Shown: piece after piece, positions 27,679-35,036 of the stretch
Position numbering within the stretch: the first letter of the stretch is position 1
Layout: every line of letters starts with the position of its first letter
NCBI GenBank assembly: GCA_012727715.1
Contig: JAAYGN010000031.1
Coordinates: 1-52,418, forward strand
Origin: Desulfovibrionales bacterium
GTDB taxonomy: Bacteria > Desulfobacterota > Desulfovibrionia > Desulfovibrionales > Desulfomicrobiaceae
Reading direction: 5' to 3'
Length of the DNA: 52,418 bases
The notes under the pieces: generated by a model
Databases searched by the model: none
What the model was told of the DNA's origin: nothing
Seen by the model: only the letters and a program-made list of their open reading frames with translations
Program-made: the position numbers and the translations under genes

Positions 27679-27780
27679 TTATATGCTTTGAAATTCAAAA
27701 TTCAACCTTTGTGCTTGTCGCAATGTGTTTTTTTGCGTAACTTCACATAGAAAAGATGACAAGCTTGAGGAAGGTTGGCC

Positions 27781-28710
27781 ATGTATCGTTTTTCCATTCT
27801 GCTCGTCTCCGTAGTCTCTTTGTTGTTTTGTCTTTGTGCCTGTTCAGAAAGTGAACCTGTGGTGCGGGTAGACATGAACAAAGTGGAGACCATAGCTCCT
27901 TCAGAATATGAGCATGCCATAACCTACGCCTATTTGCCCCAATATTCTCATTCTGTTTCTTTTGAGCGGCACCGCCGTTTACTGGAATATCTCAGGCACA
28001 AAACAGGTCTGTCCATCCGTCAAGTATTTCCCGATACGTTTTGGGAACATATTAAAATGGTTGAACGTGGGGAAATTGATGTTTCCTTCACCAATCCTTT
28101 TACCTATATTACCATGGCCAATTTTGGGGCAGAAGCCTTTGTCCGGGTTGTGGAAAAAGACCATGGGGCAGATTTTTCAGGTCAGGTTATTATTCGTGCT
28201 GATAATCCAGAGATTCAATCTTTGGGTGATTGTCGTGGCAAGCGTATTATCGCCGTAGATCAAGACTCTGCGGGTGGGTATTTGTATCCCTTGGGACTTT
28301 TTATGGAGCAGGGCATCACCAGAAGTGATTTTCAAGAGATCACCTTTGCTTCCTCCAGCTCAGGCGGCAAGCAAGAGGCTGTGGTTTTGGCTGTCTATGC
28401 AGGAGCCTATGATGTAGGCATGATTCGTAAAGGTACGCTGGAAGTCACTCGAGACAAGGTTGATTTGGAGCAAATCAAGGTCTTAGCTGAAAGCCGTCCT
28501 TATCCTGGCTGGGTATTTTCTGTTCGCAAAGACTTTGACCCAGCCATCAAGGGCAAAATTGCGCGAGCCCTGATGGAACTTGATTATACCCAGGAAGATG
28601 ATGCTCGAATTTTAGAAGCAGCGGGCATGGTCAAGATCATTCCAACCCAAGACAAGGACTATGAAAGTGTTCGCGAGTTAGTACGAACTCTTGGTCTGGA
28701 AAGAGATTAG
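27781..28710 (+). CDS. PhnD-like phosphate/phosphite/phosphonate substrate-binding lipoprotein
   Basis: Lipobox-like LFCLCACSES; YLPQYSHSVSFERHRRLLEYLRHKTGLSIRQVFPDTFWEHIKMVERGEIDVSFTNPFTY, IIAVDQDSAGGYLYPLG. Confidence 0.88.
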   Translation: MYRFSILLVSVVSLLFCLCACSESEPVVRVDMNKVETIAPSEYEHAITYAYLPQYSHSVSFERHRRLLEYLRHKTGLSIRQVFPDTFWEHIKMVERGEIDVSFTNPFTYITMANFGAEAFVRVVEKDHGADFSGQVIIRADNPEIQSLGDCRGKRIIAVDQDSAGGYLYPLGLFMEQGITRSDFQEITFASSSSGGKQEAVVLAVYAGAYDVGMIRKGTLEVTRDKVDLEQIKVLAESRPYPGWVFSVRKDFDPAIKGKIARALMELDYTQEDDARILEAAGMVKIIPTQDKDYESVRELVRTLGLERD

Positions 28711-28711
28711 T

Positions 28712-30748
28712 ATGCGTCCTATTTTTTCTCGTCTTAAATTTGAAACCAAGCTTAACCTTGGTATTTTAACCATTGTTGCCTTTATGGCCTTAACCCTTTT
28801 GCCCATCGTCGCTCGCATGACCTCCTCAGCACTGATCAATGAAAATAAAATGCGAGGACTAGCCCTAACAGAAAGCTTGGCTGCTCGTGCTGTAGATCCC
28901 ATCTTGACCCAAGATTACCTTCGACTCAGAAATTTAGTGGGAGAGCCAGGCGATGCTGTGTATGCCTTCATCTTAAATGATGATGGCCGGGTCATGGGAC
29001 ATTCTTTTTTACGAGGATTTCCCGTTGATCTTATTCAAGCCAATATTGTTGGGTCTAATGAACCATCAGCCATCCAACTTCTGGATACCGGCCAAGAACT
29101 TATCTATGACTTTGCGACCCCAGTGCTCATTGGGGGTGAAAAAATTGGTACAGTTCGTCTGGGGCTATCCAAATCACGCATTACATCCACCACTCGACAA
29201 TTGGTCTCAGCCATTGTTACTGTTTTTGCCGGAACTTTGTTGGCCGCCATGGCCATGGGTAATATTTTTTCTCGCACTGTAACCAGACGACTAGCCTTAT
29301 TACGATCTCATGCCGAGGAACTGGTCACAGGAAGTCTTGACTCCCTGGCTGTTTTACCTGGAGAGCATTTTTGCTGGGAAATTATGCATTGCCAGGATGA
29401 TAGTTGTCCAGCTTTTCAGGATAAAGTACGCCGATGTTGGCATGTACCGAACACCAAATGCTCAGGGCACGCCTGTAGAATTGGGCCCAAGCCAGCAAGT
29501 TGTCGAGGATGTCCAGTATTTTTAGAGGGCACGGGAGATGAAATTCAGGATGTTGCTCAAACTTTTGATTTTATGGCCTATACTTTGCGTGATCATATTC
29601 GTGGTTTGCGCGAGGTACAGCATTCCCTGACTCTACAAAAACGTCTTTTATCGACTGTGTTGGACATGAACCCTGACTTAATTTCTCTGGTAGATACTCG
29701 CATGGTTTACCAGACAGCCAATCGAGCCTTTGCCCAGAACGTGGGACGTACCGTAGATGAAATTCAGGGCTTAAATGATTTCCATCTTTTTTCTGAAGAG
29801 GAGGCTGAGCGCAGGAATCTGGAAGGTCGGGAAGTTCTTTTAACAGGAGCGCGTGTTGACCGTCAGGAACGGGTGGATACTGGTCCTGATTTTTCCAAAT
29901 GGTTTCATGTGGTGCAAATTCCTGTGCAAGATGAATCTGGCCATATTGTTGGGTTGTTACGCATGGATCGTGATATCACAGATATTAAGGCCTATGAACA
30001 GCAACTTATTCAGGCCCAAAAAATGGAGTCCATTGGCAAACTCGCTGGTGGTGTTGCCCATGAAATTAATACCCCTTTGGGCATTATCTTGGGGTATGCC
30101 CAACTGCTTAAAGATGATGTTCCTCAAGAAAGCCAAATGTGGCAAGACTTGGGTATTATTGAAAAACAAACTCAAGTTTGTCGTAAGATTGTCGCAGATC
30201 TTTTGGGTTTTTCACGTCAGGTAGAATCAGATAAAAGAGAAATGTGTTTTAATAATTCAGTTATGGAGGCTATCAGTTTAGTTCGCCATTCCTTTGAACT
30301 TGATCATGTGGAAATCATTAGCAGACTTGATGACAGGTATCCCATTATTTATGGTGATCCTGAAAAACTCAAACAAGTTTGGCTGAATTTACTTAATAAC
30401 GCCAAAGATGCTTTGCCTGCCAGTGGTGGGATCATTGTGGTGACCACATGCCTGAATACACCGCAGGGTATTATTACCCTGCAAGTTGCTGATAGTGGCT
30501 CGGGTATTGATATTGCTTCACAAAAGAAAATTTTTGACCCTTTTTTTACTACCAAGGCCGTAGGTAAAGGGACTGGGTTGGGGCTTTCGGTTTCTTTTGG
30601 AATTGTTAAGGATCACAAAGGTGAAATTCGAGTAGAAAGCCCCATTCCAGATGATTTTGAGATGCCAGAGCGCATCCCACAGGAAGAAAGAGGGCCTGGA
30701 ACTATTTTTATAGTGGATATTCCGTTAGATCACTATTCCATGCCCTAA
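28712..30748 (+). CDS. membrane PAS sensor histidine kinase with Cys-rich (two-CW-like) insert
   Basis: TM segments, [15 protein letters not shown]...RCW...C...[33 protein letters not shown] (HisKA), [30 protein letters not shown]. Confidence 0.93.
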
Positions 30749-30778: not shown

Positions 30779-31144
30779 ATGGCTGCAATACTTGTTCTTG
30801 ATGATGTTGCTGACGCAGGCGTGCTGGTAAAGCGAATATTAGAACGAAAAGGACACCAGGTTACGACTTTTACAGAAGAAGAAATGGCTATTAAACATGC
30901 GGCCAAAGGTAGTGTGGATTTGGCTATTTTGGATATTAAACTAAAAAAAATGACTGGTGTTGAGGTTTTGGCTGAATTAAAAAAATGTTGCCCCCAAATC
31001 AAAGTTATCATGCTCACAGGCTATCCCACCTTAGAGACAGCACGTGAATCCTTGAAACTCGGGGCCAGTGAATATTGTGTCAAACCCATTGATAAAGAAG
31101 AACTGGAATCCAAAGTTGCTGAAGTATTGGCAATGGAGGAATAA
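30779..31144 (+). CDS. single-domain response regulator (receiver)
   Basis: ILVLDD, LAILDIKLKKMTGVEVL (phosphoacceptor Asp52), IMLTGYPT, VKPIDKEEL. Confidence 0.94.
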   Translation: MAAILVLDDVADAGVLVKRILERKGHQVTTFTEEEMAIKHAAKGSVDLAILDIKLKKMTGVEVLAELKKCCPQIKVIMLTGYPTLETARESLKLGASEYCVKPIDKEELESKVAEVLAMEE

Positions 31145-31164: not shown

Positions 31165-33597
31165 ATGCGTGCATTCCGACCCCTGAGACAGTGGTTTAGT
31201 CGTTTATTATTTCCAGGCAAGGGTATTCGTCAAAAATACAAGCACTTTAAAGCATTGTTGCGTGCTGATGCCTTGGCTTTGGATATCATAGCTGATTTAG
31301 ACAGTCATTTGTATGGCTATGATCCTGCAGATATGCATAAAATTAAGGCAGAGCTGGACAAGCTTATGGATGCAGTAGGGACCATGGTCTCGGAACTTAT
31401 GCATATGAATGCTGAGTATAAAAATTTAGATCCTGTTTTTCATACAATTTGTGCGGCTCTTCATACACAGCTGCAAACCGAGCCAGTGGACCAGAATCCT
31501 CCTTATGTCATTGCTTTGGATAAAGCTGCTGACCATCCTTTTCTAGTTGGGGGAAAAGCAACCAACTTATCACGAGTAGCAAGATATAGCATACCAACAC
31601 CACCAGGTTTTGTGGTTACTGCCACTGCTTTTTTTCGTTTTTTGCATGACAATAAATTAGAGAAAAAAATTGCTACTGCATTTCAAAACATAGCACTGTC
31701 CAATTTTGATGAAATTATTCAAGTTACAGGAGAAATGCAGGAACGCATTCTTGCTAGCGATATTCCCGATGAAATCATCATCAGTATTGAAACTGCCTTG
31801 CAAGATTTCCCCCCTGATACAACCTTTGCAGTGCGCTCCAGTGCATTATCCGAAGATGGAATCATTTCTTTTGCTGGCCAATATGCCAGTGAATTGCACG
31901 TTCCACGTAAAGAAATCCTGGCTGCATACAAAAGAGTATTGGCCGGAAAATATTGTCCCAGAGCTGTAGCCTATCGAATTCGGCATGGATTGACAGATTT
32001 TGATACAGCTATGGCAGTGTTGATCTTGCCCATGATTCCTGCCTTAGCCGCTGGAGTGGTCTATACCAGTGATCCTGCTTTTTCACTTGATGGTGAAAAA
32101 GCCATGGGCATTTATGTTGTGCCCAGTGTTGCTGATTCTTTGGTTGATGGCTCGGCAACTCCAGAAAAATATTATCTTACTCGTGACCAACAACCACAAA
32201 TACTTTCTGCTCTAAAAAATGATGGGGCTGGATATGTTGCCCATCGTGTACTGGAAAGTCTTGGGGCTTTATGTATGCGCCTGGAACATAAATTTGGCAC
32301 GGAACAAGACGTGGAGTGGGCCTATGTGCAAGATCAACTTTTTATCTTGCAAACCAGACCATTACAGAAAGAAAAACCTATAGAAGAAATAGCGTCGGAG
32401 GAAATCAACAACGCAGAAGTACTCTTTTCTGGCCTGGAATGTGCCTCTCCTGGAGCAGCCTGTGGGCCTGTATTTCATGTGGATCGAGGTTTGGAGTTTC
32501 GAAATATTCCTCAAGGATCAGTGGTTGTTATTAACAGTCTAAAACCTGCTTTGTCACAATTTCTTGATTCCATTGCCGCTATTATTGCCACCCATGGCAG
32601 CAGGGCCAGTCATTTGGCTTCTGTGGCCCGGGAATGGGGCATACCGGTTCTTGTGGGAGAAGGTGGGGCCAGCCTTAATCCAGAAGAGATTGTCACCATT
32701 GATGCCATTAATGGTGCTATTTACTTGGGTTGCTTGCCCAGTCTTTTGGCACAAAATCAATCTGCCCAAAAAGATCAAGCCCTTATTCGAGCAGAAAACA
32801 AGGACCTGGCCAAACTTTCTGTTGTTTTGCATTTAATTGACCCTCAGGCACCCGAGTTTTCTCCTTTGGGCTGCCAATCCTTGCATGATGTGGTCCGATT
32901 TTGTCACGAAAAAAGCATTTTAGAAATGTTTTCCCTGGTCAATCGTGAAGGTCGAGGCATGACGGGTGCAAGAAAAATCATCACAGATTTACCCCTCGTT
33001 ATGTATTTAATTGACCTGGGCGGCGGTTTAAGTCCCCAGGCACAGGGAGCTAAAAATATTGAAGTTGGGTGGCTTAGAGATGGACCATTAAAATCCTTGT
33101 GGGCTGGTCTGTCGGATAAACGTATTCATTGGGATGACTCTCAGACACATATTGACTGGGAAGTATTTGACCGCATCAGCGGTGGTATTTTCAAACTTGA
33201 TTCCAGCATATTAGCTAGTTATGCAGTAATTGCTGAAGATTATTTACATCTTAATGTTCGTTTTGGGTATCATTTCTCCATTATTGACTCTATTTGCAGC
33301 ACAATTTCTGGAGCAAACTATATTAAATTCAAATTTAAAGGTGGCGGTGGTGCTCTGGAACAACGTACTCTACGCTTGCAGTTTATTAAAGAGATACTTG
33401 AACAAGCTGGCTTTGAAGTCACCATTAAAGGTGATATCCTGGACGCAACACTGCAACGTTTGTCAGCCCCAAAAATTCATGACCGTTTGATAACGTTAGG
33501 ACTAATTCTGGCATACACACGGCTCCTGGATATCAAACTCACTGATACCCAAGATGTTACTTGGGAAGTAGAAAAATTTATACACATGTTTTTGTAG
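31165..33597 (+). CDS. PEP/pyruvate-binding-domain protein: ATP-grasp plus swivelling phospho-His domain, with a non-canonical C-terminus
   Basis: LVGGKATNLSRVARYSIPTPPGFVVT, TFAVRSSALSEDGIISFAGQY, EQDVEWAYVQDQLFILQTRPL, THGSRASHLASVAREWGIPVLVG; no PEP-utilising barrel motifs after residue ~540. Confidence 0.9.
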   Translation: MRAFRPLRQWFSRLLFPGKGIRQKYKHFKALLRADALALDIIADLDSHLYGYDPADMHKIKAELDKLMDAVGTMVSELMHMNAEYKNLDPVFHTICAALHTQLQTEPVDQNPPYVIALDKAADHPFLVGGKATNLSRVARYSIPTPPGFVVTATAFFRFLHDNKLEKKIATAFQNIALSNFDEIIQVTGEMQERILASDIPDEIIISIETALQDFPPDTTFAVRSSALSEDGIISFAGQYASELHVPRKEILAAYKRVLAGKYCPRAVAYRIRHGLTDFDTAMAVLILPMIPALAAGVVYTSDPAFSLDGEKAMGIYVVPSVADSLVDGSATPEKYYLTRDQQPQILSALKNDGAGYVAHRVLESLGALCMRLEHKFGTEQDVEWAYVQDQLFILQTRPLQKEKPIEEIASEEINNAEVLFSGLECASPGAACGPVFHVDRGLEFRNIPQGSVVVINSLKPALSQFLDSIAAIIATHGSRASHLASVAREWGIPVLVGEGGASLNPEEIVTIDAINGAIYLGCLPSLLAQNQSAQKDQALIRAENKDLAKLSVVLHLIDPQAPEFSPLGCQSLHDVVRFCHEKSILEMFSLVNREGRGMTGARKIITDLPLVMYLIDLGGGLSPQAQGAKNIEVGWLRDGPLKSLWAGLSDKRIHWDDSQTHIDWEVFDRISGGIFKLDSSILASYAVIAEDYLHLNVRFGYHFSIIDSICSTISGANYIKFKFKGGGGALEQRTLRLQFIKEILEQAGFEVTIKGDILDATLQRLSAPKIHDRLITLGLILAYTRLLDIKLTDTQDVTWEVEKFIHMFL

Positions 33598-33608: not shown

Positions 33609-34646
33609 ATGAGTCCAGTTTATCAACCAACCTGGGTTACAGAACAATTGGCCATTGGAGCGGCTCCCATGAGTCATGCCCAATTGGATGCTCTTCGAGA
33701 AATGGGTATTGCGGCCATTCTTAATTTGTGTGGAGAATTTTGTGATCTCCATGAAATTGAATGTGCAGCTGGATTTGAAGTGTATCATATTCCTTTGGCT
33801 GATGAAGAAGCACCGCAACTTGTGGAGTTGGAAAAGGCCTTGGAATGGCTTGATGAGGCTATCTATTTAGGGAAAAAAGTGCTTATCCATTGCCGTCACG
33901 GTATTGGACGCACAGGAACAGTTCTGAACGCCTACTTATTACGGCGTGGCCTTGGCCACCGGTTAGCCTGGTTTAAAATGCGTCCGTTGCGGGCAAAGCC
34001 AGCCAACTTTGCTCAATGGCGTACAGTACGCAAGTATGGAAAAGAAAGCCCCAAGCTTACCATTCGCGAACCATCTCTAGAAATGCGACGTGCAGTGGAT
34101 TTGTCTCCTTTTTTCCACGATTATGAGGCATTAGTTCATCGTGTGGAGCAGGAAAAAAAGCATGACCCCATGCAGCAATGCGGACAGAACCATACTCAAT
34201 GCTGTTATACCTCCATCTATGTAACATTGGTTGAATCTTTATATGTGACTAATAAAATGAACTTGTGTTTGCAAAGCAGTGAACGTTTACAAGTTATCAA
34301 CCGGGCTGTTGAATCATCAAAAAATGAACGAAAAATTTTACAACAGATGAATAATGCCGACTTGTGTTTGTCGCAAACAACGTTACTCTGTCCTGTTTCT
34401 ATGGAAAATAAATGTCTGCTCTTTGAATATAGACCCATTCAATGCCGAACTTTTGATCTTACCCAAGAACAAGCTTACACTCTTTGGGATGAACTTATCC
34501 AGCCTTCTTTGGACAGGTTATCCAGTGAGTTGTGGATGGCTTTTACTGGTGAGCTTATTAAAGAAGAGTTACCACACTTTTCTTTTGCTGATGTTTTATC
34601 AGGAAAATATATTCAAACTTTATTTCATGTTATGAGTAAAAATTAA
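33609..34646 (+). CDS. dual-specificity protein phosphatase fused to a YkgJ-like Cys-cluster domain
   Basis: VLIHCRHGIGRTGTVLNAYLL (HCX5R, Cys95); C-terminal CGQNHTQCC ... LCPVSMENKCLLFEYRPIQCRTFDL. Confidence 0.85.
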   Translation: MSPVYQPTWVTEQLAIGAAPMSHAQLDALREMGIAAILNLCGEFCDLHEIECAAGFEVYHIPLADEEAPQLVELEKALEWLDEAIYLGKKVLIHCRHGIGRTGTVLNAYLLRRGLGHRLAWFKMRPLRAKPANFAQWRTVRKYGKESPKLTIREPSLEMRRAVDLSPFFHDYEALVHRVEQEKKHDPMQQCGQNHTQCCYTSIYVTLVESLYVTNKMNLCLQSSERLQVINRAVESSKNERKILQQMNNADLCLSQTTLLCPVSMENKCLLFEYRPIQCRTFDLTQEQAYTLWDELIQPSLDRLSSELWMAFTGELIKEELPHFSFADVLSGKYIQTLFHVMSKN

Positions 34647-34685: not shown

Positions 34686-35036
34686 GTGGAGTCCACTACT
34701 TTCCTGGATATTTCCGAGAGTCTGGATCGTCTGGCTGGCGATAAGGAGTTACTCATCAGACTCTATGAGCTTTTTTCCATTGATGCTCCCAAAAAACTTT
34801 CTGAAATCCATCATTTTTCCGATAAAGGGGAGCTATATCAATTAGAACGTACAGCTCATTCTTTGAAGGGTGCAGCAGCCACAGTTGGAGCGACACAACT
34901 CCATGTGTTAGCCCTTCATTTAGAACAAGCCGCCAAGGCTCAGGATATGAATCAAGTATCCTTGCTGTGCAATGAGCTGGACTTGGTTTGTAGCCAAACC
35001 CTGAAGGCCATGCGCACTTATAATGCTTCACCCTGA
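34686..35036 (+). CDS. Hpt domain protein (histidine phosphotransfer)
   Basis: IRLYELFSIDAPKKLSEI...LERTAHSLKGAAATVGATQLHVLALHLEQAAK. Confidence 0.88.
   Translation: MESTTFLDISESLDRLAGDKELLIRLYELFSIDAPKKLSEIHHFSDKGELYQLERTAHSLKGAAATVGATQLHVLALHLEQAAKAQDMNQVSLLCNELDLVCSQTLKAMRTYNASP

Follow-up and report, generated by a model that had tools for sequence, protein, structure and literature searches.

The locus described here raises a simple question: to what does a protein pass its phosphate when it keeps the ATP-using parts of PEP synthase but carries another domain in place of the PEP/pyruvate barrel? The gene lies in a 52,418-nucleotide stretch (the window) from a Desulfovibrionales bacterium of the Desulfomicrobiaceae (assembly GCA_012727715.1, contig JAAYGN010000031.1, positions 1 to 52,418). 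It occupies 31165..33597 on the + strand and encodes an 810-residue PEP-synthase-like (PPS-like) phosphotransferase, P0001, with an ATG start at 31165 and a stop at 33597. Twenty bases separate the stop of the preceding receiver gene from the ATG, and a GGGAGG sequence resembling a ribosome-binding site stands just before this start. Relatives in congeners align at full length, over residues 3-809.

The protein consists of an N-terminal helical domain (residues 1-110; 31165..31494, +), an ATP-grasp domain (residues 113-409; 31501..32391, +), a central swivel phosphohistidine domain (residues 418-523; 32416..32733, +) and a C-terminal domain (residues 540-810; 32782..33594, +). Pfam assigns residues 127-409 to PPDK_N (1.8e-56) and residues 448-517 to PEP-utilizers (PF00391; 2.2e-15), with no match in residues 1-120 or 540-810. 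The full-length AlphaFold model (pLDDT 87.5, pTM 0.80) places helices at residues 4-15, 17-49, 57-81 and 88-103 of the N terminus, a domain that is retained in the degenerate clade described below, and its fold matches are rifampin phosphotransferase (RPH), PPS, pyruvate phosphate dikinase (PPDK) and HpeI, over the ATP-grasp part. In a phmmer alignment to RPH (5hv1), K131, R224, E384 and H483 correspond to K22, R117, E297 and H825, whose roles have been described (PMC4844700). These four residues, together with Q396 and R398 of the ATP-grasp domain, are invariant among 60 aligned full-length homologues; the codon of the catalytic His483 lies at 32611..32613 (+).

The C-terminal domain is modelled with confidence on its own (pLDDT 85.4), and in the AlphaFold model the C terminus is not a (beta-alpha)8 barrel. 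Fold searches with the domain model returned nothing at E<=0.001, either in the PDB (best E 0.01, TM 0.20) or among the viral structures of BFVD (best 1.4e-3, TM 0.24); weak guanidino-kinase-like and RecJ-like matches were dismissed as not meaningful. A profile of the domain found no relative in the PDB (best E 0.11), its 79 members gave no Pfam match above chance, and hhalign against the barrel of the genome's own PEP-synthase-type protein gave a probability of 0.1. The missing barrel is not a problem of sensitivity, because the same Pfam scan detects PEP-utilizers_C (PF02896) at 4.8e-46 in that PEP-synthase-type protein. Pfam, profile, fold and hhalign comparisons thus rule out a hidden or diverged barrel: the ATP-grasp domain and swivel histidine of PEP synthase have been kept and the pyruvate barrel has been replaced. 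Within the replacement, H574, D575, R578, H581, E582, G701, Y702, H703, G726-G728 and R737 are invariant in 60 full-length proteins. The first-pass annotation, made from the letters alone, had read the ATP-binding motifs as intact, placed the swivel histidine at residue 483, noted a helical N terminus of ~100 residues and taken the ~270 residues after the swivel for a different domain, and it stands on all of these points. It would have given way to a standard barrel or to the loss of ATP-grasp catalytic residues; the structure prediction and fold search of residues 540-810 that it proposed gave a confident model with no barrel match, and the catalytic residues are retained.

The PPS-like protein belongs to a widespread Desulfobacterota family. 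Full-length homologues share 53-57% identity in most congeners and 33-48% in other Desulfobacterota, with named relatives including Desulfomicrobium, Pseudodesulfovibrio, Solidesulfovibrio, Desulfopila, Desulfobacula and Desulfobulbaceae. In a sample of 148 genomes from across the phylum, 58 encode the C-terminal domain, with as many as 12 copies in one genome. A plasmid search matched the query only to about residue 564, and the matches listed were mostly annotated ppsA genes. Besides one degenerate homologue and a true PPS on C122, the window genome itself holds two more paralogues of full architecture (contig C249, 889 aa; C263, 859 aa). At the paralogue loci (L112:298-2874 and L111:223-2889), one gene lies by a PiT-like transporter and a sigma-54 regulator, and the other is divergent from the dead homologue.

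Such a degenerate homologue, ~560-580 aa long and made of N- and C-terminal domains, is found in all 16 genomes of the genus, and the 14 that were aligned have neither a swivel domain nor ATP-grasp motifs. With one sequence from each of two further genera of the family (G017 and G018), they make up the 16 degenerate sequences analysed, which form one clade with one origin across three genera (support 0.979). We compared them at the 26 C-terminal positions that are invariant in 22 full-length enzymes. R578, H581, Y702 and F565 are gone in 16/16 and H703 in 15/16, and the scaffold residues D575, P641, G648, L745 and G779 are retained in every one. R578 and H581 belong to an HDxxRFxHE motif (residues 574-582; R578..H581 at 32896..32907, +) and Y702-H703 to RFGYHF (33268..33273, +). 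Since these polar residues, invariant in active enzymes, vanish along with the catalytic histidine, R578, H581, Y702 and H703 are best read as a candidate second active site on the acceptor side. Their losses represent one evolutionary event rather than independent ones, so the pattern is suggestive and not proof. It nonetheless favours the earlier proposal that the protein is a phosphotransferase for something other than pyruvate and that its acceptor domain has been exchanged, as do the intact catalytic residues and the absence of a barrel. The further suggestion in the first-pass annotation, that the acceptor may be a partner protein from the same operon, is no more than a possibility.

The degenerate homologue also leads to a permease. 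In most congeners it lies just downstream of a TauE gene and a gene for a small membrane protein (in G006, contig C7, TauE is at 124652-125656 and the homologue at 126476-128155); in G018 the genes before it are DUF169, TauE and the small membrane protein; the G017 copy comes after PhnD and histidine kinase genes, near TauE. The window genome encodes a TauE/SafE permease of the DVU0251 family (G000:C189:58388-59386; L148, L174), followed by a membrane protein of ~200 aa (DVU0250-like), on another contig than the window cluster. Its degenerate homologue of 579 aa (L115:1405-3141, - strand; G000:C249:9164-10900) adjoins a nad gene on C249, apart from TauE on C189.

In the window, the PPS-like gene is preceded by genes for a PhnD-like periplasmic binding protein (DVU0249-like; 27775..28710, +; Phosphonate-bd 6.4e-60), an sCache-PAS histidine kinase (DVU0248-like; 28691..30748, +) and a stand-alone receiver domain (DVU0247-like; 30779..31144, +; Response_reg 9e-24). 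It is followed, in the place of DVU0245, by a dual-specificity phosphatase (DSP) of the CX5R type (33609..34646, +; DSPc 6.6e-15, PF22785 5.3e-20) and then by an Hpt protein (34686..35036, +; Hpt 1.7e-12). The C-terminal half of the DSP is CxxCxxCC-like, a match that falls below the cut-off in orthologues. At L079, L078, L080, L083 and L108 the phosphatase partner seems short (frames of ~180 aa) and devoid of this Cys-rich half.

The association with the phosphatase is close to obligate. Across 80 named loci, of which 76 were testable, the PPS-like gene is immediately followed by a DSP gene of the same strand in 71, at a median gap of 69 bp. In four of the remaining five (L032, L033, L035 and L054), it is instead immediately preceded by TauE and the gene for the small membrane protein. 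Among 61 relatives, all 35 with a DSP orthologue carry the PPS-like gene, adjacent in 33 and with contig ends between them in 2; the PPS-like gene occurs without a DSP only in G010, at a contig end, and in G058. Two genomes, G005 and G011, have neither gene and still keep TauE. The PPS-like and DSP genes are gained and lost together. The domains, catalytic residues, phosphatase pairing and TauE linkage can be read in the sequences themselves.

Other neighbours are more variable. Of the 42 loci that have 5 kb of sequence on either side, 15 carry PhnD, 17 the small membrane protein and 13 TauE. Genes for sigma-54 response regulators also recur, as do those for a molybdopterin oxidoreductase and ferredoxin. 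The oxidoreductase and ferredoxin lie beside PPS-like and TauE genes in Desulfobulbia and Desulfobacteria (L084:764-2878, L088, L052, L103 and others), and the oxidoreductase is possibly the user of a transported oxyanion. The first-pass annotation had named both the phosphatase and the Hpt as partners; the first is tightly linked, as the pairing above shows, whereas a tblastn search detects the Hpt at none of the other loci in the genus or the family. Because it is not conserved in place, the Hpt is probably not core, and we rejected it as a core partner. In two congeners its slot holds a CheX-type phosphatase (G009; L177:3129-3605) or an unannotated 180-aa frame (G006); Hpt and CheX are both protein types that act on receiver phosphate. 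A role in anti-phage defence was also discarded, as PADLOC gave no match.

The order PhnD-like protein, histidine kinase, receiver, PPS-like protein and DSP is that of DVU0249-0245 in Table 3 of Korte et al. 2014 (PMC4001038), who described the 'nitrate cluster' of Desulfovibrio vulgaris (DVU0251-DVU0245) and D. alaskensis (Dde_0597-0605). That cluster comprises DVU0251 (TauE), DVU0250, DVU0249 (PtxB/PhnD-like), DVU0248 (histidine kinase), DVU0247 (receiver), DVU0246 (PPDK_N and a mobile domain) and DVU0245 (DSP). The two share these last five genes, but the window has no adjoining TauE and DVU0250-like genes, which are on C189, and has the Hpt after the DSP. Gene order, annotated domains and the similar lengths of the two proteins make the window gene the probable orthologue of DVU0246, a protein whose C-terminal domain was not analysed and for which no function was proposed (PMC4001038). 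The first-pass annotation had overlooked this published cluster and its mutants.

Transposon mutants of D. vulgaris in DVU0246, DVU0247, DVU0250 and DVU0251 grow equally with or without 100 mM nitrate, whereas the DVU0245 phosphatase mutant is inhibited by nitrate like the control (PMC4001038). The mutants thus place DVU0246 and TauE in the same direction of effect on nitrate sensitivity, and the phosphatase gene not. In D. alaskensis G20, unlike D. vulgaris, mutation of the phosphatase gene likewise confers resistance to nitrate (+2.08), and it is in these two species that resistance on loss of the cluster was shown (PMC4001038). Korte et al. suggested a leaky thiosulfate transporter (PMC4001038), and a later paper ascribed nitrate resistance to the loss of putative thiosulfate transporters (PMC9723548).

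The reading that we prefer, at about even chances, is that the PPS-like protein is an ATP-dependent phosphohistidine phosphotransferase of the dikinase type that is opposed by the phosphatase and controls TauE-linked oxyanion uptake. By homology, ATP held in the ATP-grasp domain would phosphorylate His483, probably with release of AMP and phosphate as in PPS and RPH, and the swivel domain would carry the phosphate to the C-terminal domain. There, a different, hydroxyl-bearing acceptor would be presented at the site containing R578, H581, Y702 and H703, and the adjacent CX5R phosphatase would remove the resulting O-phosphate. The pair would form the output of the upstream system of PhnD-like sensor, histidine kinase and receiver, and would control the TauE/SafE-type permease of the DVU0251 family either directly or via the small membrane protein; nitrate would then exploit TauE-linked oxyanion uptake. 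We infer the acceptor site, the acceptor chemistry and the control of TauE. Given the phosphatase neighbour and a cluster whose loss gives Desulfovibrio nitrate resistance, the protein probably switches anion uptake on or off by phosphorylation. The opposite phenotypes of DVU0246 and DVU0245 in D. vulgaris fit a kinase/phosphatase model; the resistant DSP mutant of G20 does not. The placement of TauE on a separate contig in the window genome, and its presence in G005 and G011, which have neither the active enzyme nor a DSP, also speak against this reading. A fuller version, in which a PEP-synthase-derived enzyme with an uncharacterised acceptor domain and a DSP form a new reversible phosphorylation switch that sets the activity of a TauE-type permease, with the dead homologue as a docking or decoy partner, is tentative and rather less likely to hold as a whole.

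An alternative, which we regard as possible though somewhat unlikely, is that the enzyme is a small-molecule dikinase whose C-terminal domain binds a metabolite on which the phosphatase or the redox enzymes of the cluster also act. In the literature searched, the relatives characterised so far that have a dedicated acceptor domain in place of the barrel, RPH (PMC4844700) and HpeHI (PMC12167813), all phosphorylate small molecules, RPH binding rifampin and HpeH phenols, and many loci have genes for a molybdopterin oxidoreductase and ferredoxin close by. However, the company of a sensor kinase, a receiver and a phosphatase suggests a regulatory role, and a metabolic kinase would not account for the retention of a dead homologue alongside the permease across related genera. 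An analogy with glucan water dikinase and phosphoglucan phosphatase, a dikinase working with a DSP, was also considered and dropped, there being no evidence of glucan binding and the literature search being empty.

If His483 passed its phosphate to an aspartate or histidine in a second protein, such as a receiver or Hpt, or if the phospho-state alone regulated bound enzymes, the protein would be a histidine kinase resembling VadK; we think this improbable. VadK (Rv1127c) is a barrel-less PPDK that still autophosphorylates, on His422, and binds enzymes of the methylcitrate cycle (PMC13400623), and in the window a stand-alone receiver gene precedes the PPS-like gene and an Hpt follows the DSP. 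VadK is without any C-terminal domain (PMC13400623), and the comparison therefore leaves the invariant C-terminal domain unexplained. The Hpt, moreover, is not conserved. DSP-type phosphatases usually act on O-phosphate, which also counts against such a transfer. Least probable by far is a PEP synthase that is decayed or completed in trans by a separate barrel. Two-component dikinases do exist, as in HpeHI (PMC12167813), and the best NCBIfam matches are PEP synthase models, but these cover just the ATP-grasp and swivel parts and score far under their cut-offs (TIGR01418, the PEP synthase equivalog, 195.9 bits against 739.75; the rifampin phosphotransferase model NF041857 likewise scores 148.8 against 999). 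The only barrels in the window genome are those of the PEP-synthase-type protein on C122 and a 597-aa PtsI-like frame on C189, a census that largely rules out a barrel encoded in trans, and decay is contradicted by the invariance of the catalytic residues across the family.

The nitrate cluster and its phenotype are already known. The literature searched describes neither the architecture nor the near-obligate, phylum-wide phosphatase pairing, nor does it mention the candidate acceptor site or the occurrence of a dead homologue next to the permease. Strong mutant phenotypes of the cluster have been on record since 2014, with no mechanism in that literature, and the cluster bears on the escape of sulfate reducers from nitrate treatment in oil fields. 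With a catalytic histidine, a candidate acceptor site (R578/H581/Y702/H703) and a near-obligate phosphatase partner named, it becomes directly testable. More broadly, a large clade has put parts of PEP synthase to new use in what is probably a signalling phosphotransferase, one that automatic annotation leans towards calling PEP synthase.

Compared with PEP synthase and PPDK, the PPS-like protein has the same order of ATP-grasp domain and central swivel histidine and the same catalytic residues, but the PF02896 barrel is replaced by an unrelated domain of 270 residues and a helical N terminus is added. With RPH and HpeHI it has in common an ATP-grasp domain and swivel histidine that serve a non-pyruvate acceptor module; in RPH, however, the swivel histidine is C-terminal, after the acceptor domain, whereas here the swivel is central (418-523) and the acceptor domain has no similarity to that of RPH. 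VadK, like the PPS-like protein, is a barrel-less PPDK relative with an intact ATP-grasp domain and histidine, and is regulatory. VadK ends after the swivel domain, with no C-terminal replacement domain and, in the text consulted, no phosphatase partner, whereas the PPS-like protein has the conserved domain at residues 540-810.
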